NCBI RefSeq assembly: GCF_030145145.1
Contig: NZ_JAQYWD010000009.1
Span: 62,001-126,000 of the forward strand
Length of the DNA: 64,000 bases
Source: Desulfobacula sp.
Lineage (GTDB): Bacteria > Desulfobacterota > Desulfobacteria > Desulfobacterales > Desulfobacteraceae
Direction: 5' to 3'
Position 1 is the first letter of the stretch; every line of letters begins with the position of its first letter. Of this stretch, positions 30,679 to 55,639 are shown in pieces. Position numbers and translations under genes: made by a program. The notes beneath the pieces were generated by a model. The model was not told the origin of the DNA and did not search any database. It saw only the letters and a list, made by a program, of their open reading frames with translations.

Positions 30679-30930
30679 AAAACTGGTTATCCCAAGGATT
30701 TTTGCCAATCTGCTTTCCGATCCCACTTGACCGATTGCCATAATTAGTTTGCCGTAAATAATTTTTGACTCATCAGATGTCTTGATGTATACTTGGCCCA
30801 TATTGAACTTCATACGGCTATTTTTTCCATTTGATCGCGGATTCATCAAGTAAATTTCATGTGTTAACTATTTATCAACGGAACTGTCTTTTTCACAACA
30901 CTTGGGTTTTATTAAAAGAAAGGAGCAGCT

Positions 30931-31908
30931 ATGACGGATCAGTCCTCACAAGTATTTCTTCAGCGGGCACGGGTGATGACCTTAATCAGAAGAATCGCAT
31001 TTGTCTGTTTTATTATCGCTGTTTTATATTCTTTGGCTGCGGTGGTGTATTCAACCAAGGTCATTTACAAGGTCAAGCTCAATTATGCGGTTATCCTTGA
31101 ACAGTTTGGCGGGAAACGACAGGCGGTGACCGATCTTGGCTGGCATTACAGGCTTCCTTTTTTCACCCGACTTGAAAAAGAAGTCCCCTTGATGAATCAA
31201 AATTTGTATCTGGGTGGCAGTTCGGCCCCCATAAAAATTATTTCCCAGGAAAACGTCGCCCTTTGGACATCTGCTTTGATGACGTTTAAAATAACAGATT
31301 TAAAGGTCTGGGGGATTGAGAATCTTTCAGCTGAAATTCTTCTCCAGGGGGATTTTGATGGTATTGCCAAAGATACACTGCAAGCCCAGGAAGTCAATAA
31401 ACTGATCAGTGAAAGGGAACGAATAAAAGAGATTATTTTCCAGGCATTGAAAAATCGCCCCATCAACAAAAACGGCCCGACCATCGAAGGAAAGTACGGG
31501 ATTGAGGTGGTTAGTTTTGTGATCAATGAAACCCGGTTCGGCGATAAACTGGTTGAAGCAACCGAAGAGAAAAAACGACGTCAGCTCATCGCGGAAGCCG
31601 ATAATTATGCGGCAGACCAGGAAGCCGAGAGGATTAAGAAATTGTATACAGCCTATCTAGAAGGGATCCGATCCCTCCACCTTGCCTTGGGCGGGTCTGA
31701 CAAGCAACGTGTCAACCCGGCATTGTTTGAGTTTTTATCCCAGCAAAAATGGGCCACGGCCTATGAAAAAAATCAATCTGATCAAAAAACGTTTGTCCTC
31801 CATGGTGCAGGGCAACCACCTTCTTTAACCCTGCCTTCCCTGCCTGACTCCCGCCCCCCTGTCCTGTTGGGAGAAGGCCAGGCAACGACATTACCACAGG
31901 CTGATTAA
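30931..31908 (+). CDS. SPFH/Band 7 membrane protein upstream of the AAA-Lon protease
   Basis: 325 residues. One N-terminal membrane segment (about 20-42, IAFVCFIIAVLYSLAAVVYS) is followed by an SPFH domain (VILEQFGGKRQAVTDLGWHY, PIKIISQENVALWTSALMTF, GIEVVSFVINETRFGDKLVE). A charged helical stretch (EEKKRRQLIAEADNYAADQE) comes next, then a proline-rich tail (PPSLTLPSLPDSRPPVLL). It resembles HflC, stomatin or prohibitin proteins, which form membrane rings around AAA proteases. AAAGGAG precedes the ATG. The AAA-Lon gene starts 46 bp downstream, which parallels HflKC-FtsH and prohibitin/m-AAA pairs. Confidence 0.88.
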   Translation: MTDQSSQVFLQRARVMTLIRRIAFVCFIIAVLYSLAAVVYSTKVIYKVKLNYAVILEQFGGKRQAVTDLGWHYRLPFFTRLEKEVPLMNQNLYLGGSSAPIKIISQENVALWTSALMTFKITDLKVWGIENLSAEILLQGDFDGIAKDTLQAQEVNKLISERERIKEIIFQALKNRPINKNGPTIEGKYGIEVVSFVINETRFGDKLVEATEEKKRRQLIAEADNYAADQEAERIKKLYTAYLEGIRSLHLALGGSDKQRVNPALFEFLSQQKWATAYEKNQSDQKTFVLHGAGQPPSLTLPSLPDSRPPVLLGEGQATTLPQAD

Positions 31909-31954
31909 AAAAACTTAACCCCAGGTTGATTTCATTTTATTCAGGGAGAAGGGT

Positions 31955-34900
31955 ATGGCCAAAAGAACGACAAAAGAAAAAACATTGATCAGGCTTCCGG
32001 AAGAATCCATAAAGAAGTTAGAAAATCTTGTAAACGCATGGAGTTATGACACCAAAGCATTTGTCCGATCCCGTCTGAACCAGTACAAAGTTGTTCACCC
32101 CTTTATTTCATTTTTAAAAGAGTCCTTCTTTTTTCTCTTTTTTATGAGACGGAAAAAAAGAAAAATGAATGTGTTAAACAACCCGGAGATTCTCAGGGAC
32201 TGGAAAAAGCGATTTTTATACTCCGGGGAGACAAACCCCGGCGCCTCCTGGAACATGATCATTGAAAAAGAACTGACAAAACCGGAATATCATTATTTGA
32301 TTGCGGTGTTAGATAAAGAATTAACCGACCTCCATGTTCCCTTTGAACTGGAAGAAACGTTTGACAAGATATACCGGGTCCATATCCGGAAAGAACATAT
32401 TGAAGACCCGGATGTTCCTAAAGCCCCCATCGTTCTCATAGAGGGCACTTCCGGCAGCGGCAAGAGTGCTACGGTCAGGGAAACATTGGAAAAGGTGGTG
32501 TTCAGGAATGAAGTGATTCCCATGGTGGACTGGAAAAAGAAAAAAGAAGAAATCCTGGCAAATCACAGTCTGTTTACCAGCCTGGAAGATGTGGACCCTG
32601 AATTTGCCATGAAGATTGCAAAAAAAAGAAAGCAGGTCTTTTACAGCCGCCTGGCTCAAATTCCGGTGTTACGGTTCCTGTTTAAAAAGCGAATCATGAA
32701 CAACCTGACCTACTTTGAAGAACGCGGGATTACGGTGGATTCCTCTATTATCACACCCAATGACTATCAAACGGCGTTATCAGGAGAACCGGGTAATTAT
32801 TTTAAACGGGCCATGGGTCACCCAAAAGTCACGTCCATCCGACACATCGAAGAAGCCCATTCTGCCTTTGGAAAGTCCGAGAGCTCCCCTGGCAGTGGCG
32901 GCGCTGAAAAACAGCAGCGGACCCTGATTGATACCTCCAATATTGTACTGGATGAAATTATTGAGGGAAGAAGAGACTGTTTCATTATTGCCACCAGTGA
33001 CCAGACCCATCGATTTGATTCCGCCATATACCGGCGGTTTGTGGAAAAAGGGTGTATCATTGATATGGCCAAATACTGGATGAATGCAGAAAATTTGAAA
33101 AAAATTATTTACCTTGAAATCAAACGGCACCAGATCCCCACAACGTATGCCCCGGATTCCGACAGCCTTGATGATGCAACCCGGAAAATATACGAGGTGT
33201 TTAAAGAAAGAAGCCTTAAAATAAGCCCGGCCTACGTCAGAAAACTCATTGAATCCATTATCAATATCCGGGGGGATTTCATCCTTGATTTCCTGGATAG
33301 CAGTATCCTGGTCAGAAATGCATTTCAACTGGTGGCCAAAAATGTCTATGGTGAATTATACAACAAGGTCGTTGACCGAATGGATCGAACGGTTAAATGG
33401 GATGAGTATGTGGGGGATATCAAAGATAAATTTTCTGAAATGGCCAATAATTGTTTCAGTTATGGGATCAGTGAGGAAAAAGGTGTTGTTCTGACCGGAC
33501 CGCCGGGCAGTGGGAAGACATTTCTTGTCCGGACATGGTTGTCTTCAAACCTCAAGGTTCATGATATTGCCACGAGCCCTTCGGCTCTCCAGGACCCGTC
33601 AAGCCCGGTTCACGGCGCTGTCTCAAATCTTGAAAAAGTCTATGATATTGCAAAAATGATTGCTCCCACGATCATTTTTTTTGATGAGGGTGATGCCCTG
33701 GCCCCCCGAAGAAGTGCCACAGGGGGTCAACCATCGGATGCATTAACCAATAAATTCTTAAATATTATTGATGGGGAAATTCCCCTCAATAAGGTCTTTA
33801 CCGTTCTGACCACCAATCGTCTGGACATCCTTGATCCTGCCCTGATCCGTTCAAAACGATTAAAAACCCTTGAAATATCCGGCCACATGAGACAAAAAGA
33901 CATCTTTGACATTATTAAAAAGCGATTTGAAACCCTGCCCCATAATCGCCAGTTTAAAATTGAAAAAATTATTGAGACCGCCCAGGGCATCTGTAACACC
34001 CCGGCGGACTATACGTCTTTTACGGAAAAGGCCATTGCCCTGTGCAGTACAGAATACAAGGTCCTGTTAAAGCTTCGCCAGTTGAAAAAATCCACCCAGG
34101 AGGAAAAATGGGATTTTATCAAGCTGAATTTTAAAACCATCATCGGCATTCTTGATGCGGTCAAGGCGCCCCCCCTGATAAAGTCAAACATTAAAAATGA
34201 TATTAAAAATTTTGTTGCCCATTATGCCCAGATCCTTGTCTACGTCGATCATATCTATTCGGAACAAGACTATCCCCTTGTGGAAGCCCATCTGGAATCC
34301 GCGCGAAGGGAAATTTCTCAAAGTCCCGTAAGAAAAGGGTCTATCCAGCTCAATGAATTTCTGGAAACAGAGTTGAGCCAAGAACCCCAGGTCGGGTTTA
34401 TCATTGGTGTGGGCGCCAATGATCTCACCGGGATGCTGCTGCCCATAGCCACCAGCCTCACTGGAAGAGTGGACGGATCCCAGATTATTGTCACGGGTGC
34501 GGTATCCTCTTCTTCAGCCAATTCGGCGGAACTTGACATGGCGGTTCAAATGACAAAACAATCTGCCCAGGAAGCGTTGACCATGGTGAAAAACTATATT
34601 CAGGAGTTGTCGCCCAATTACAGTATTCCATGGATTTTTGGAGATTTTTTACAGCGATATTCCATTCACCATCAACTGCTTTCCGCGTCCTATAATGTCG
34701 GGGGACCATCCGCGGGTTATGCCCTTGCCTTGAATACGCTTTCCGCATTGTTAAGAATTCCCCTGTGCATCGATTTTGGTATCACCGGCGCTCCCTGGAC
34801 CAAAGGGGTTAGAAAAGATGAGGTTGGCGGTTCCGTCATTATCGGCGGGCACAGGAAAAAGACGGAAAAAGTGCTGTTATACCTGAGGAGAATGTACATG

Positions 34901-35269
34901 CCCTTACAGAATTATAAGGACCTTGAACCTGAATTTGTAATGGGATACTGGCAACGGAAAAAAGACATCATTGCCGTCACCCATTTTGCCGATTTAATGC
35001 CGGAAGTCCTGTTTCTGGATGACGAACATAACCAGAAGCGGGAAGATCTCATCGCGATGCGGATAAAATTGAAAAGCGAAAAATACTATGCCACAGAACG
35101 GACACCAAATCTTAAGGAAAACATTATCCAGACAAAAAAGGAAATGAGAAAACGGGCGGAAAATGAAATATTAAAGCGGGTGGGTGCCATCCGAAACTAT
35201 CTTACAGATCCTGACAGGGAAAGATATATCTCCCATGAAAAGATTTTTAAACAGTATATGGAAGAATAA
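31955..35269 (+). CDS. Tandem AAA+ ATPase with C-terminal Lon-type protease domain
   Basis: 1104 residues. After a basic N-terminus with a hydrophobic patch (about 50-65, ISFLKESFFFLFFMRR) comes a first AAA module with Walker A GTSGSGKS (164-171) and a Walker-B-like IRHIEEAHSAFG. A second, Cdc48/FtsH-like module follows, with Walker A GPPGSGKT (515-522), Walker B IIFFDEGDAL (Asp577-Glu578) and sensor VLTTNRLDILDPALIRSKRL. The C-terminal part has a Lon (S16) fold: FIIGVGANDLTGMLLPIATS, VTGAVSSSSANSAELDMAVQ, the serine in VGGPSAGYALA (Ser919) and GGSVIIGGHRKKTEKV, where the catalytic lysine would lie (967-969, exact residue unclear). Known LonA, LonB and LonC have one AAA module. An ATP-driven protease, probably tied to the membrane by the SPFH partner, is inferred. 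Confidence 0.85.
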   Translation: MAKRTTKEKTLIRLPEESIKKLENLVNAWSYDTKAFVRSRLNQYKVVHPFISFLKESFFFLFFMRRKKRKMNVLNNPEILRDWKKRFLYSGETNPGASWNMIIEKELTKPEYHYLIAVLDKELTDLHVPFELEETFDKIYRVHIRKEHIEDPDVPKAPIVLIEGTSGSGKSATVRETLEKVVFRNEVIPMVDWKKKKEEILANHSLFTSLEDVDPEFAMKIAKKRKQVFYSRLAQIPVLRFLFKKRIMNNLTYFEERGITVDSSIITPNDYQTALSGEPGNYFKRAMGHPKVTSIRHIEEAHSAFGKSESSPGSGGAEKQQRTLIDTSNIVLDEIIEGRRDCFIIATSDQTHRFDSAIYRRFVEKGCIIDMAKYWMNAENLKKIIYLEIKRHQIPTTYAPDSDSLDDATRKIYEVFKERSLKISPAYVRKLIESIINIRGDFILDFLDSSILVRNAFQLVAKNVYGELYNKVVDRMDRTVKWDEYVGDIKDKFSEMANNCFSYGISEEKGVVLTGPPGSGKTFLVRTWLSSNLKVHDIATSPSALQDPSSPVHGAVSNLEKVYDIAKMIAPTIIFFDEGDALAPRRSATGGQPSDALTNKFLNIIDGEIPLNKVFTVLTTNRLDILDPALIRSKRLKTLEISGHMRQKDIFDIIKKRFETLPHNRQFKIEKIIETAQGICNTPADYTSFTEKAIALCSTEYKVLLKLRQLKKSTQEEKWDFIKLNFKTIIGILDAVKAPPLIKSNIKNDIKNFVAHYAQILVYVDHIYSEQDYPLVEAHLESARREISQSPVRKGSIQLNEFLETELSQEPQVGFIIGVGANDLTGMLLPIATSLTGRVDGSQIIVTGAVSSSSANSAELDMAVQMTKQSAQEALTMVKNYIQELSPNYSIPWIFGDFLQRYSIHHQLLSASYNVGGPSAGYALALNTLSALLRIPLCIDFGITGAPWTKGVRKDEVGGSVIIGGHRKKTEKVLLYLRRMYMPLQNYKDLEPEFVMGYWQRKKDIIAVTHFADLMPEVLFLDDEHNQKREDLIAMRIKLKSEKYYATERTPNLKENIIQTKKEMRKRAENEILKRVGAIRNYLTDPDRERYISHEKIFKQYMEE

Positions 35270-35916: not shown

Positions 35917-36891
35917 TTATTTTTCAGGGCCTGATTCCGGTGTGGCAATCTGGTCCCGCATCCGTGTATCTGCAGAAATATTTTTCATTCTATAATAATC
36001 CATGATCCCCAGATTACCGCTTCTGAAAGCTTCTGCCATGGCCAGGGGCACCTGGGCCTCAGCTTCAACAACCTTGGCCCGCATTTCCTGAACCCGGGCT
36101 CTCATTTCCTGTTCCTGGGCAAAGGCCATGGCCCGTTTTTCCTCGGCTTTTGCCTGGGCAATTTTCTTGTCGGCCTCGGCCCGGTCGGTTTCCAGTTCAG
36201 CCCCGATGTTTTTGCCCACATCCACATCGGCAATATCAATGGATAAGATTTCATAGGCGGTTCCGGCATCCAATCCTTTTTTCAGGACGGTTTTGGAGAT
36301 CATATCCGGGTTTTCCAGTACTTCTTTGTGGGTGACAGCGGATCCGATGGTGGTGACAATCCCTTCCCCCACCCTTGCCAGAATGGTTTCAGCTCCGGCC
36401 CCGCCCACAAGGCGGTCAATATTGGCGCGAACCGTGACCCGGGAAATGGCTTTCAACTGGATACCATCTTTTGCCATGGCGGCCACCAGGGGGGTTTCAA
36501 TGACCTTGGGATTGACGGACATCTGAACCGCCTCAAGCACATCCCGGCCGGCCAGATCTATGGCAACGGCCCGGTTAAAGGTCAGTTCTATATTGGCCTT
36601 GTCTGCTGCAATGAGGGCCTGGACCACCCGGCTGACATTCCCGCCGGCAAGAAAGTGGGACTCCAGGCTGTCCGTGGGGATGTCAATACCGGCTTTGACT
36701 GCCATGATTTTAGATTCAACAATCAGCTTTGCCGGCACTTTTCTGAACCGCATAAAAATAATATTGATCAACCCGACCTTTGCACCGGACACCAATGCCT
36801 GTAACCACAGGGCTAAATAAGAAAAAATAAAATAAAACAGTACTAACCCAACAAGACCTGCAACAATTAATAAAATAACCATTAAATCCAT
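35917..36891 (-). CDS. floA: Flotillin-like protein FloA (YqfA family)
   Basis: 324 residues, typical of bacterial FloA. It has an N-terminal membrane hairpin ([20 protein letters not shown]), then an SPFH domain ([59 protein letters not shown]), then a flotillin coiled coil rich in Ala/Glu ([39 protein letters not shown]). FloA organises functional membrane microdomains, and in Bacillus its gene is linked to NfeD. Here it follows the NfeD-short gene by 15 bp and the NfeD gene before that, the same yqeZ-yqfA type arrangement. Confidence 0.95.
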
Positions 36892-36906
36892 TGAACCTAT
36901 CTCCTA

Positions 36907-37383
36907 TTATTTGGTTTTTTCAACGATAATCCGGTTGCCGGCGACACCTGTGACAACAATGGGCGTACCGGCTTCAATATATTCTCCATCGGTCACCACA
37001 TCCAATCGATGGGAGTTTACTTCGGCCATTCCCGCCGGGCGAAGATCGGTGACTGATTTTCCTTTCATCTGTATATAGGCTTCAAGTCCCTGGTTTTGTG
37101 ACACCACGCCCTCCTGTTTTGACAGCTCCCGCTTCAGGGACAGGGGGGAGTGGGCCAGGATTTTCATCCCCACAACAATTAATACCGGAATCAGGACCAG
37201 GTCCATCCCGGTGAAGAGTATCCCTGCTGCCGTAGATATGGTGGTAAAGACCAGGTACAGGGAATACAAAAAGATGCTAAGGGCGATGGCCGATAACAGT
37301 CCCAATGACGGGATAAAAATTTCGGCAATAATGACCAGAATGCCAATCACTTGAAGCAGAATGGGTAACAGATAGGGTTTCAT
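36907..37383 (-). CDS. NfeD-like short protein
   Basis: 158 residues. Three to four membrane segments (LLPILLQVIGILVIIAEIFI, LGLLSAIALSIFLYSLYLVF, GMDLVLIPVLIVVGMKIL) precede a small OB-fold domain of the NfeD type (GMAEVNSHRLDVVTDGEYIE, TPIVVTGVAGNRIIVEK). It corresponds to the C-terminal half of NfeD without the ClpP-class protease domain. It lies between NfeD and floA with gaps of about 15 bp and likely works with FloA in the membrane. Confidence 0.88.
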   Translation of the reverse strand: MKPYLLPILLQVIGILVIIAEIFIPSLGLLSAIALSIFLYSLYLVFTTISTAAGILFTGMDLVLIPVLIVVGMKILAHSPLSLKRELSKQEGVVSQNQGLEAYIQMKGKSVTDLRPAGMAEVNSHRLDVVTDGEYIEAGTPIVVTGVAGNRIIVEKTK

Positions 37384-37399
37384 TCCGTGCCTTTATATG

Positions 37400-38860
37400 T
37401 CAGGATGTTTTGGGTTTAACAATTACACGATTCTGGTCTATTCGATCAATAACAACAATGGTTCCCTGTTCAATGAAGTCTCCCCGGGTAATGGCATCAA
37501 TTTTTTTGTCGTTTATCATCACTTTTCCTGCCGGCCGGAGAAAGGTGTGGGCCAAACCGGTATCACCCGGTTCTATCCCTAAAGCGGTTGTGACATCCAC
37601 ATGGGAGCTTTCAAGGGTTGCGTCAAGATAAGGGCCATTCACTATTTTTGAAAACTGCGGTAAAACAAAGCGGATCATAAACAAAGAGATGAAAAAGGCC
37701 AGCATAAAAGACCCCAGAACCTGGGCCAGATTTTTCATCAACAATTTGCCTTCCCAGGGAAAGGCGGGGTCAGGGACCACAAATCCCTGAAAAGAAAGGA
37801 CAAGGCCTGCGGCAATGAACAAAAGGCCTGAAATACCGGCCACACCAAATCCGGGAAGAACAAACACTTCCACACCCAGCAGCAGCACACCGATGAGCAG
37901 GAGCAACAATTCCGTATAGTCTGCAAGGCCGACCAGGTATTGGTTACAGAAAACCAACCCCAGGCAGAGGATACCGACCATGCCGGGCAGGCCAAATCCG
38001 GGCGCCTTTATTTCCGTATAAATGGCACCGATTCCAATGAGCATTAATATGGGTAAAATCGGTTGAAGCCGCCTTACCAGGCTTTCAGACCAGGACTCTT
38101 CAATGGTGATGATATCCATGGATTCATACCCTAAAAGGGAGAGGACCTCTTGGATGTCAGTGACACTTTTTTGTGAAAACCCGAGATCAAAGGCTTCAGC
38201 ATCATCCATGGTGAGGAGTTCTCCCTTGGCCACAATGGTCTTTTTAGCAGAGATCTTTTTTTTCTCATCTTCAGTCAGATCGTCAAAGGATATTTTATCC
38301 ATATACGTTTTCTGACCCTCCATCACCACGGAATAGACTTCCATATCAATGGTGACCATGGACTCTGCCAGCACTACAGGATAATTGTTTTTCTTGGCCA
38401 ATGCACGAAATCTCGCCCTCAGGACCGTCTGAATCTTTTCACCGGCCATTTTCTGGCCTTCCTGGGTTTGGGTGATGGGCGCGCAATCCCCGATGAGGGT
38501 ATTTTTTTTCATGAACAACACGTTTGAGGACAGGGCGATCAGGGCGCCTGCGGAAATGGCTCTTTTCTCTACAAAGGCAATGGTTTTTCCCTGGGGAATA
38601 TTTGAAATAAAGTCTACAATATCCAGGGCGGCATCCACCCTGCCGCCAAAGGTATCCAGTTTAAACACAAAGACCGCCTCTTTTTCATCCTGGATTTCTT
38701 CCAAAGCTCTTTTAACATAGGCGGCCATGCCCGGTTCCACAGTTCCGGTAACCGGAATAATATACACTTTTTGTCGGTTTTCAGCAGCACACAAAGGGTT
38801 TCCCAAAAAAAGAAACCAACATCCCAGCAGGATAAATATCAGGTATATTCTTTGCTTCAT
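37400..38860 (-). CDS. NfeD family protein with ClpP-class serine protease domain (NfeD1b)
   Basis: 486 residues. A signal peptide (LIFILLGCWFLFLGNPLCAA) precedes a ClpP-fold protease domain (IIPVTGTVEPGMAAYVKRAL, FKLDTFGGRVDAALDIVDF, with nucleophile region AISAGALIALSSN). Five or so membrane helices follow (about 265-420), then an NfeD OB-fold domain (GDTGLAHTFLRPAGKVMIND). It probably cleaves membrane proteins such as stomatins or flotillins on the outside of the membrane; related archaeal NfeD cleaves a stomatin. First gene of the NfeD / NfeD-short / floA operon. Confidence 0.93.
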   Translation of the reverse strand: MKQRIYLIFILLGCWFLFLGNPLCAAENRQKVYIIPVTGTVEPGMAAYVKRALEEIQDEKEAVFVFKLDTFGGRVDAALDIVDFISNIPQGKTIAFVEKRAISAGALIALSSNVLFMKKNTLIGDCAPITQTQEGQKMAGEKIQTVLRARFRALAKKNNYPVVLAESMVTIDMEVYSVVMEGQKTYMDKISFDDLTEDEKKKISAKKTIVAKGELLTMDDAEAFDLGFSQKSVTDIQEVLSLLGYESMDIITIEESWSESLVRRLQPILPILMLIGIGAIYTEIKAPGFGLPGMVGILCLGLVFCNQYLVGLADYTELLLLLIGVLLLGVEVFVLPGFGVAGISGLLFIAAGLVLSFQGFVVPDPAFPWEGKLLMKNLAQVLGSFMLAFFISLFMIRFVLPQFSKIVNGPYLDATLESSHVDVTTALGIEPGDTGLAHTFLRPAGKVMINDKKIDAITRGDFIEQGTIVVIDRIDQNRVIVKPKTS

Positions 38861-53289: not shown

Positions 53290-53313
53290 ATGATCGTTTA
53301 TCAGGAGAGGGCT

Positions 53314-54444
53314 ATGGGACAAAATAATCTTGTGCTGCTGGAAATTCTTGAATGGTTTGACAAGACAGGCAAGGAAATGGTGCAGCGCATTCCGGCCCAG
53401 GGGTCCGGAGAAATCAAATTTGGGGCTCAAATGATCGTCAGGGAGAACCAGGTCGGTATTTTTTTTTATAATGGAAAAGCGGTTCATCTGTTCGGGGGAG
53501 GGCGACATACCCTGAAGACTGCGAATATTCCCCTTCTGACGAAGATCTTGTCCATTCCCTGGGGGTTGACCAGTCCTTTGCGGGCTGAAGCTTATTTTAT
53601 CAATATGAAAGTGTTTCCGGATTTGAAGTGGGGAACCCGTGATCCTGTGGCCTTCAGGGACAGCGAACTCGGTTTGATCCGACTGCGGGCCTATGGTATC
53701 TTCAATATCCGGGTGATCCAGCCGTTATTGTTCATCAACTCCCTGATCGGTACCATGGCCAATTTTACCATTGCGGATATTGAGGCATATCTGGGCACTG
53801 TCATTGTCTCCCGGTTAAATGACTATATGGGAGAGAATCTGGATACCCTTCTGAACCTGCCCGGAAAATATGAAGCCTGGGCCCGGGGCCTTCAAAAAAA
53901 CCTTGTCGATGAATTCAGCCGTTTTGGGCTGGCATTGACGGATTTGTTTATTAATGCCATCACCCCGCCCCGGGAAGTGCAGAAACTCATGGATGACCGC
54001 AGTGCCATGGGATTGTTTGATGATATGAACAAGCTCATGCAGCTAAAGGCCGCTTCATCCATGGAAAAAGCGGCTGAAAATCCAGGAACGGCAGGCCAGG
54101 GGATGGGGATGGGCTTAGGGTTTATGGTGCCGTCCATGATTTCCAGGATGATGGATCCCCCTGTAAAGGCAGCGGGTCCAACAACGGCAGACGATCCCCC
54201 CAAATGCCCGGACTGCGGGAAGGTGATACCACAGGATGCCGGATTCTGTCCCTTTTGCGGACATCAGATCCTGATATTGGAGAAATGTGCTGCCTGCGGT
54301 AAAAATTTATCCCTCAATGCCGTATTTTGTCCCCAATGCGGGACAAAGGTGAAAAAAAAGGAATCAACCAGGGGTTGTCCGGGGTGTGGCACAGAAAATC
54401 TAATGACGGCAAGGTATTGTAATGGCTGTGGTGAGCGGATATAA
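53314..54444 (+). CDS. SPFH-domain protein with C-terminal zinc ribbons (YdjI-like)
   Basis: 376 residues from the ATG giving MGQNNLVLLEIL, with AGGAGAGGG upstream; a start 24 bp earlier is possible. The SPFH region (IKFGAQMIVRENQVGIFFYN, LSIPWGLTSPLRAEAYFINM, IRLRAYGIFNIRVIQPLLFI) resembles the virion-core/YdjI branch. The C-terminus has three Cys4 zinc ribbons (CPDCGKVIPQDAGFCPFCG, CAACGKNLSLNAVFCPQCG, CPGCGTENLMTARYCNGCG). In Bacillus YdjI recruits PspA-type proteins to the membrane. There is no membrane helix. It overlaps the next gene by 23 bp. Confidence 0.88.
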   Translation: MGQNNLVLLEILEWFDKTGKEMVQRIPAQGSGEIKFGAQMIVRENQVGIFFYNGKAVHLFGGGRHTLKTANIPLLTKILSIPWGLTSPLRAEAYFINMKVFPDLKWGTRDPVAFRDSELGLIRLRAYGIFNIRVIQPLLFINSLIGTMANFTIADIEAYLGTVIVSRLNDYMGENLDTLLNLPGKYEAWARGLQKNLVDEFSRFGLALTDLFINAITPPREVQKLMDDRSAMGLFDDMNKLMQLKAASSMEKAAENPGTAGQGMGMGLGFMVPSMISRMMDPPVKAAGPTTADDPPKCPDCGKVIPQDAGFCPFCGHQILILEKCAACGKNLSLNAVFCPQCGTKVKKKESTRGCPGCGTENLMTARYCNGCGERI

Positions 54445-55639
54445 TTTCCAGATAGACCTCCTATGCCCCCAGTGCGGGGCTCCCGCTGTTTTAGAAGAGA
54501 CACAAACCATAATAAAATGTGACTTCTGCAGAACCCGGAATATTCTTCATTCCCATCCCTATCCTTGTTTTTATATGGCACCCGGGCTTAAAAATCCTGC
54601 CGGTCTTTCCGTGGTTTATGTTCCCTATTGGCGGTTCAAGGGACTTGAATTCAGTCTGGGAGAAAAATCGCCGGGGTTCCGGGTTATGGATCGTTCCCAT
54701 CTGGCCGTCGACAAGATTCGATTGCCACTGTCCATTGGACTGCGGTCCCAGACCCAGACGCTGAAATTTATCCGGGAAAACCTTGTCGGGAAATTTTTGC
54801 CCCCCACCATTTCCCGGAAAGAGATGCTCCAGCAGATTGCCGGCACTGGAGAGAAAAAAATATATATTGGTGAGATTTTCAGCCTGATTTTCATGCCCTT
54901 TTTTCAGGATGCAGACATTCTGTATGACGGGTTATCCGGTAAAAAGCTTGCCATAACAGCTTCAACGCTCATGGCAGATACGCCGGCACCGGTATATCGT
55001 CTTGAATATACACCCAGCCTGTGCCCGAACTGTGGATGGGATTTAAGGGGAGACGCCGATTCCCTTGTTCTGCAGTGTAACCATTGCAATACGTTCTGGG
55101 TGATCCATCATAAAAAATTAATCAAGGTCAAGGGCATGTTTTTTGATTCATGTCCGGGTGCAGATCTGTGCCTGCCGTTCTGGCGGATGCAGATTGGCTT
55201 TAAAACCCTTGAGTGTGGCACCTATGCCCATTTGATCAAACTTGCCAATATCCCAGAATCCATCCAGGAGGAACATAAACATCAGGCTGTCTATTTTTAT
55301 GTCCCGGCATTTAAAATTAATCCCAAATTGTTTTTAAGGATCGCCCGGCAAACCACCCTGGCGCAGATTGAACCAACCCGGACAGATAAGATGCCCACAA
55401 CCCAATTTTATCCGGCAACCTTACCCCTTGAGGAAGGCCTCCAGGCTGTTGTTCCTCTTCTCATGGACCTGTGTGCAAACAAAAAAGAAATATGGATACT
55501 CCTGGCAAAAGAAAAAGTGACACTAAACGCTTTCACTCTGGTGTATCTTCCATTTCAAACATCCGGGAGCGAGTATGTTCAGGATACCCTTTGCTTTAGC
55601 CTTCCGAAAAACTCCCTCAAGTTTGGCCGCAGGTTATAG
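54422..55639 (+). CDS. Zinc-ribbon protein partner of the YdjI-like SPFH protein
   Basis: 405 residues. The N-terminal zinc ribbon (CPQCGAPAVLEE, IKCDFCRTRN) is TFIIB/YdjH-like. A second CxxC pair is in the middle (LCPNCGWDLRGDADSLVLQC, then CNTFW). Between and after them are WR-type segments seen in bacterial zinc-ribbon partners of SPFH proteins (VVYVPYWRFKGLEFSLG, CLPFWRMQIGFKTLECG, YFYVPAFKINPKLFLRIARQ). Function is unknown. The 23-bp overlap with the SPFH gene points to a joint complex. Confidence 0.75.
   Translation: MAVVSGYNFQIDLLCPQCGAPAVLEETQTIIKCDFCRTRNILHSHPYPCFYMAPGLKNPAGLSVVYVPYWRFKGLEFSLGEKSPGFRVMDRSHLAVDKIRLPLSIGLRSQTQTLKFIRENLVGKFLPPTISRKEMLQQIAGTGEKKIYIGEIFSLIFMPFFQDADILYDGLSGKKLAITASTLMADTPAPVYRLEYTPSLCPNCGWDLRGDADSLVLQCNHCNTFWVIHHKKLIKVKGMFFDSCPGADLCLPFWRMQIGFKTLECGTYAHLIKLANIPESIQEEHKHQAVYFYVPAFKINPKLFLRIARQTTLAQIEPTRTDKMPTTQFYPATLPLEEGLQAVVPLLMDLCANKKEIWILLAKEKVTLNAFTLVYLPFQTSGSEYVQDTLCFSLPKNSLKFGRRL

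Follow-up and report, generated by a model that had tools for sequence, protein, structure and literature searches.

Every domain of life has SPFH assemblies. The reason for their association with membrane proteases is a matter of debate that involves open or closed HflKC cages (PMC12048511). The 64,000-nucleotide stretch of Desulfobacula DNA analyzed here (hereafter, the window), which is part of a 5.66-Mb genome, contains on the plus strand a gene for an SPFH protein directly followed by a gene for a large protein that combines two ATPase modules with a Lon-type domain. A sequence-only reading of this DNA had proposed that the two products could constitute a membrane proteolysis system, with an SPFH ring that might tether or gate a Cdc48-like double-ring protease. 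The locus raises the question whether the two genes form a conserved unit and, if so, whether this unit could be a membrane-associated, ATP-driven protease built differently from the HflKC-FtsH system.

Gene layout and the SPFH protein

The SPFH gene (30931..31908, + strand; 325 amino acids) was identified using Pfam and Foldseek, and the downstream gene (31955..35269, + strand; 1104 amino acids), the product of which we denote the protease for brevity, by using Pfam, comparison with NCBIfam and a structure model. These coordinates, the intergenic gap of 46 bp and both protein lengths were re-derived exactly as they had been given in the sequence-only reading, and the two Walker A motifs and the serine in the GGPSAG motif that it reported are present at the respective positions. 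A purine-rich stretch precedes the start of each gene. A promoter-like site 5' of the pair (TTGACT-17-TATACT, 30765..30793, + strand) is a consensus match only, and the region contains 15 such sites compared to 8.3 expected, a count that says nothing on function.

The SPFH protein (30931..31908) consists of a short basic N-tail, a single transmembrane (TM) helix (approximately residues 22-40), the SPFH domain and a helical C-terminal part. Membership in the SPFH superfamily is indicated by the Pfam Band_7 match (48 bits, cut-off 23.6). The best Foldseek matches of the structural model are HflK/HflC, prohibitin and stomatin structures (for 7vhq_G, E 3e-12, probability 1.00), with a whole-chain TM-score of about 0.4 and single stomatin SPFH domains fitting with a target TM-score of about 0.8; the pTM of the AlphaFold model is 0.48. 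The predicted fold of this protein is of the stomatin/prohibitin/HflKC kind. At the sequence level, the closest PDB profile match is QmcA (E 0.004), no NCBIfam model claims the protein, and comparison with E. coli HflK using hhalign yields a probability of 3%, so that the protein does not group with HflK/HflC by sequence profile. We take it as an SPFH subfamily of its own, with no close family by sequence. The same genome encodes a separate adjacent pair of Band_7 proteins, probably HflK and HflC. At window 53290-55639 (+ strand), a fourth Band_7 match of this genome, 384 aa long, has cysteine pairs like those of zinc ribbons at its C-terminus, and the 405-aa protein encoded after it carries similar pairs (recognized by eye in both).

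The charges that flank the TM helix of the SPFH protein range from 2 to 7 on the N-terminal side and from 2 to 4 on the C-terminal side (37 rows of the alignment), compared, by the same measure, to 0 versus 1 in QmcA, and 1 versus -1 and 1 versus -2 in the probable HflK/HflC of this genome. The topology leans towards an N-terminus inside and an SPFH domain outside, as in HflK/HflC, and this is a mere lean because E. coli HflK and HflC themselves give 2 versus 2 when measured in this way. Should the SPFH domain lie in the periplasm, just about 20 residues of the SPFH protein would face a cytosolic protease.

Domain architecture of the double-ATPase Lon-type protein

In the 1104-aa protein, Pfam recognizes AAA domains in two stretches and a Lon_C domain at residues 801-991; no NCBIfam model claims this protein, the LonA, LonB, FtsH and Cdc48 models all scoring far under the respective cut-offs. 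The AlphaFold model has a pTM of 0.51, with pLDDT values below 50 at residues 790-867, 903-919 and 946-966 (Lon domain). When the model of the whole chain was compared using Foldseek, the 50 top-ranking matches were Cdc48/p97 and further proteins with two AAA modules, and the alignments span 592-755 columns, more than one module would fill; given that the TM-scores are 0.18-0.27 by model length and the rmsd values 10.9-22.6, these matches support the make-up of the protein and not the arrangement of the modules in the model. The domain set fits the tandem (type II) AAA design, in which the two modules would form a stacked double ring.

The first ATPase module, AAA1 (approximately residues 151-400; 32405..33154, + strand), contains a Walker A motif (GTSGSGKS, residues 164-171), a Walker-B-like motif (HIEEAH, residues 297-302) and the sequence Tyr359-Arg360-Arg361; its model displays the expected order of strands and helices, with a helical insertion at approximately residues 193-252. 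In the alignment of homologues, the Walker A lysine is invariant (37 of the 37 rows having a residue there), and the Glu299-Glu300 pair and Arg360-Arg361 are conserved. Sequence profiles retrieved no confident AAA relative for AAA1 beyond the P-loop region, and hhalign aligned it with Cdc48 at a probability of 47%, in the P-loop region only. By eye, residues ~273-287 resemble the pore-loop stretch of the first module of p97 (LAGE). Judging from these motifs, AAA1 is a divergent ATPase module, too divergent for a confident assignment by sequence.

By sequence comparison, the second module, AAA2 (approximately residues 491-720; 33425..34114, + strand), is clearly Cdc48-like. Its Walker A (GPPGSGKT, residues 515-522) and Walker B (FFDEGD, residues 575-580) motifs are followed by TTNR (residues 619-622) and by Arg632 and Arg635; the Walker A lysine, the DE of Walker B, Asn621 and both arginines are invariant among the homologues. 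The best PDB sequence matches of AAA2 are p97/Cdc48, and the hhalign comparison with the Cdc48-family protein of relatives gives a probability of 99%. No obvious aromatic residue is seen by eye at the usual pore-loop place of this module. Both nucleotide sites are conserved among the homologues, and, in agreement with the double-module architecture claimed initially, both ATPase modules are found in every complete homologue aligned (37 of 38 rows, the 38th being cut by a contig end).

The N-terminal domain (residues 1-72; 31955..32170, + strand) belongs to no known family and is modelled as a strand-helix-helix followed by a helix of variable hydrophobicity. A ribbon-helix-helix DNA-binding domain was considered for residues 1-45 (window 31955-32089, + strand) because of the modelled strand-helix-helix and a likeness of the sequence to ribbon-helix-helix proteins that is apparent by eye. 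For 37 members of the protease family, the Pfam matches listed (E up to 10) comprise 12 families, each found in a single member; no plain ribbon-helix-helix family is among them, and one is a HicB-like antitoxin (E 0.24); among PDB chains, these 45 residues have no match. Hydropathy analysis detected no clear TM helix in the protease. The sequence-only reading had suggested that a hydrophobic patch near residue 55 could aid membrane association; this patch is pronounced among the closest relatives and weaker in the others, the mean hydropathy ranging from 1.83 to -0.52 across 38 rows (one of which is a partial sequence without that region). In three relatives (L065, L060 and L026), its hydropathy over 19 residues is borderline, at 1.60-1.65. 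Given this variation across the family, the patch was rejected as a conserved membrane anchor.

The Lon-type domain, the predicted catalytic pair and selection

The Lon-type (S16) domain (approximately residues 801-1020; 34355..35014, + strand) is recognized in Pfam as Lon_C with 25.6 bits (cut-off 21.1), which assigns it to the S16 family. It includes Ser919 (34709-34711) and Lys969 (34859-34861); these two residues, together with Gly965 and His966, are the same in all 38 homologues aligned. The profile of this domain matches archaeal LonB structures (best match, 1xhk, E 1.3e-6), and in this alignment Lys969 falls on the lysine of the LonB motif, which we take to be the catalytic one; comparison with the strongest Lon_C protein of this genome (LonA-like) using hhalign places GGPSAG on DGPSAG and GGHRKK on GGLKEK. 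The sequence-only reading had questioned the lysine on account of its GGHRKK context. That doubt is answered, because the motif context differs and the position does not: a non-catalytic lysine context is rejected by the LonA and LonB alignments together with the invariance, and Lys969 occupies the ordinary catalytic position. The LonB and LonA alignments place Ser919 and Lys969 on the catalytic pair of these enzymes, and the two residues are the predicted catalytic pair here, in keeping with the Ser-Lys feature of Lon proteases. Eight more places in the same genome (G000) match Lon_C, of which four do so strongly (E 2e-77 or better) and four less so; open frames of 801, 809 and 471 codons are among them.

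Judging from substitution patterns, both genes are real and are subject to purifying selection. The dN/dS values, which were calculated by the NG86 method for eight pairs of relatives and eight parts of the protease, range from 0 to 0.28 in every part where they are defined (one of the 64 domain values is undefined, and some dS values are saturated); for the SPFH gene, eight pairs of relatives yielded 0.042-0.108 by the same method. For the Lon domain, dN/dS is 0.013-0.055 in seven of the eight pairs, and the eighth pair shows no amino-acid change there. When the three modules are compared, dN/dS is lowest in the Lon domain in six of the eight pairs, AAA2 being lower in one and one pair being tied at zero; across all eight parts of the protease, values below that of the Lon domain are seen for the stretch 73-150 in three pairs and for the stretch 721-800 in two pairs. 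The trees of the SPFH and protease proteins are correlated (r 0.92), which shared ancestry alone would also produce.

These data bear on the possibility that the double ATPase is a segregase that extracts or remodels membrane proteins, with a Lon-type domain that mainly holds the hexamer together or cuts rarely, in parallel with the use of a Lon-like fold in RadA or BrxL. Such a role would be compatible with the tandem design and the Cdc48-like AAA2, with the large distance between the Lon domain and the LonA and LonB models (~37 bits against cut-offs above 500), and with the Ser-Lys spacing of 50 residues, which is longer than the 43 residues of E. coli LonA. A mere scaffold, however, would not need a Ser919 and a Lys969 that are strictly invariant, and the low dN/dS of the Lon domain in most pairs likewise speaks against it. 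We regard the segregase as an unlikely explanation and prefer a proteolytic function of the Lon-type domain.

Phyletic distribution and genomic context

Homologues of the protease share 48-93% identity with it, far more than chance would produce. Among the 97 nearer genomes, the protease gene is carried by 40 (as complete, contig-end-cut, split or broken copies), and 38 of these have an intact SPFH neighbor; in the remaining two (G031 and G036), the contig starts within the protease gene. In a phylum sample of 395 genomes, the protease profile (E <= 1e-60) and the SPFH-subfamily profile (E <= 1e-20) match the same 12 genomes, with the two genes adjacent and on the same strand in each, and neither profile matches any of the other 383 at those limits. 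The profiles of the Lon domain alone and of AAA1 alone (E <= 1e-9) match only the same 12 genomes, always inside a full-length frame, so no variant missing one module was seen in these scans, which scored the best few candidates per genome. An SPFH gene lies beside every homologue, in both samples, whose upstream side is on the contig, and no intact SPFH-subfamily gene was found without the protease gene beside it in the 97 and 395 genomes. With broken and split copies counted, the two samples contain 50 adjacent pairs in 49 genomes. The additional pair comes from a draft genome, G003, with two copies (G003:C450 and G003:C7), which may be a strain mixture. An overlap of 1-4 bp between the two genes is seen in L055, L056 and L057.

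Degraded copies were also found. In G012 and G013, a stop interrupts the protease frame next to an intact SPFH gene. Remnants of both genes are present in G022 and G057, where the C-terminus of the SPFH protein lies beside protease fragments (G057:C101 and G022:C349), an arrangement that indicates joint decay. In G006 and G051, scraps of the protease were detected and an SPFH remnant was not.

Across 29 neighborhoods, both families were found in all 29 by tblastn. Clustering of open reading frames recovered the two families in 26 and 23 of the 29, because the simple caller used preferred overlapping frames in the others; the next commonest gene family was found in 6 of the 29. Three candidates for additional components were rejected: the family of the upstream methyltransferase is present in 4 of the 29 neighborhoods, that of an alpha/beta hydrolase in 6 of the 29, and the adjoining FloA/NfeD cluster in 3 of the 29 (the window, L033 and L061). 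This last cluster, which consists of FloA, a short NfeD and a long NfeD with a ClpP-like domain (window 35917-38860, - strand), is convergent to the pair. Annotated neighbor genes are of the housekeeping type. Since the Ser-Lys pair, the second AAA module and the SPFH neighbor, the three features on which the initial proposal hinged, all hold among the homologues, the SPFH and protease genes are well supported, at the level of genome comparison, as a conserved two-gene unit; a membrane role of the patch near residue 55 is not supported across the family.

The strict adjacency also weighs on the reading under which the two proteins are co-expressed in response to the same membrane stress and never touch, the SPFH protein being a microdomain organizer and the protease a soluble quality-control enzyme. 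The protease has no clear TM helix, its N-terminal hydrophobic patch is not conserved, and the SPFH domain may be located across the membrane from it, all of which would suit two independent proteins. The adjacency in both samples, together with the joint remnants in two genomes, nevertheless amounts to a coupling above the usual co-regulation, and independent action of the two proteins appears still less likely to us than the segregase; physical partnership is the reading that we retain.

The carriers of the pair in the 97-genome sample belong to the family of the window and nine other families of its order, and those in the 395-genome sample add one family of that order and four from elsewhere in the phylum; the pair is absent from many genomes between carriers, and the carrier counts are not independent events because the genomes are related. 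Within the genus, 12 of 26 members have the pair, some of the genomes being incomplete. This patchy presence, along with weak PADLOC matches of the ATPase modules to the IetA, mad8 and TRIP13 models, might hint at an anti-phage or conflict system in which an ATPase and a protease are linked to a membrane sensor. The PADLOC matches, however, cover generic ATPase regions, and the identity of the proteases drops with kinship (86-93% in the genus, 57-62% in the order and 48-57% in the rest of the phylum), as expected under vertical descent and loss. Furthermore, plasmids and phages contain no place covering 80% of the protease, a scan of viral contigs with two patterns retrieved no relative of it, and the housekeeping character of the annotated neighbors is another argument against such a system. 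A plasmid search with the SPFH protein produced no match. A contig scan with a single protease protein and close-kin patterns retrieved 20 loci, all from close kin, with best segments 82-91% identical; it speaks for near relatives only. A role in conflict seems to us very improbable.

Proposed mechanism

We infer proteolysis, complex formation and the topology of the pair from the features described above, and somewhat favor the view that the two gene products make up a single ATP-driven protease unit at the membrane, which is HflKC-FtsH-like and employs a different enzyme. The SPFH protein would oligomerize into a ring or dome in the membrane, and the protease would be located on the cytosolic side, with two stacked ATPase rings over a Lon proteolytic chamber. 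AAA1 could serve for grip and entry, and the Cdc48-like AAA2 could be the motor. The SPFH protein would bring the protease to the membrane, probably via its conserved basic N-tail or a membrane-proximal face, and would select the substrates, which would then be pulled out of the bilayer, threaded and cleaved.

Comparison with known systems

The genes that the main text of the 2009 survey of prokaryotic SPFH proteins describes beside those subgroups for which it names neither NfeD-type operon partners (three of the 12 subfamilies) nor an FtsH interaction (others) are unlike the operon partners of known SPFH members, and this main text mentions neither Lon nor 'Desulf' (PMC2636767). Neither an SPFH-Lon pair nor a two-AAA Lon appears in the titles and abstract beginnings among the matches listed from the open-access literature. 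The two-gene stomatin/NfeD operons (PH1510-PH1511, QmcA-YbbJ and FloA-YqeZ) similarly join an SPFH protein to a partner that is sometimes proteolytic (PMC2636767), but that partner is ClpP-like or a small membrane protein rather than an ATP-driven machine.

In published descriptions, LonA and LonB possess a single AAA+ module, and LonC may have a non-functional one (PMC3391209). The protease shares with these S16 enzymes the C-terminal Lon_C domain with a Ser-Lys pair at the aligned positions, but it has two P-loop modules with conserved nucleotide motifs, and scores 37.8 bits with the LonB model (cut-off 516.6) and 36.8 bits with the LonA model (cut-off 608.05). By their sequence signatures, the two proteins belong to the S16 and SPFH families, yet the single AAA module of the known Lon classes is not what the protease has. 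With Cdc48/p97/VAT, it shares tandem ATPase modules: sequence comparison assigns AAA2 to the Cdc48 family, and Cdc48/p97 structures rank first among the fold matches of the whole model. It differs in the fused protease domain and the divergent first module; the Cdc48 model TIGR01243 matches one stretch, in AAA2, with 83.6 bits against a cut-off of 802.65, which places the protein outside that family.

The closest functional parallels are HflK/HflC-FtsH and prohibitin-m-AAA, in which an SPFH membrane protein is likewise coupled to an ATP-driven protease, as would be the case here; HflKC and the prohibitins are also the nearest predicted fold of the SPFH partner, with which they share the N-terminal single TM helix. 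Unlike the HflK/HflC pair, there is one SPFH gene here, and the gene of its partner is adjacent. Whereas FtsH is a zinc metalloprotease with one AAA module, the present enzyme is Lon-type, has two ATPase modules and lacks a clear TM helix as well as any membrane or periplasmic part; the FtsH model matches it with 56.8 bits (cut-off 600) in the AAA part only, so that it is not an FtsH, and no FtsH peptidase domain is found in it among 25 of the 35 matching Pfam families.

If the partnership is real, it would serve as an independent test: whatever this Lon-type enzyme and its dedicated SPFH protein have in common with HflKC-FtsH would be what such a partnership needs. The Lon family would then include a two-motor design, and nature would provide an example of a Cdc48-type motor that is fused with a protease. 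More tentatively, the pair could represent a further, undescribed class of ATP-dependent proteases, namely a Lon-type enzyme that combines a double ATPase stack resembling Cdc48 with an SPFH membrane cage of its own, and a second, independently built route to the extraction of membrane proteins that is otherwise performed by HflKC-FtsH and prohibitin-m-AAA.
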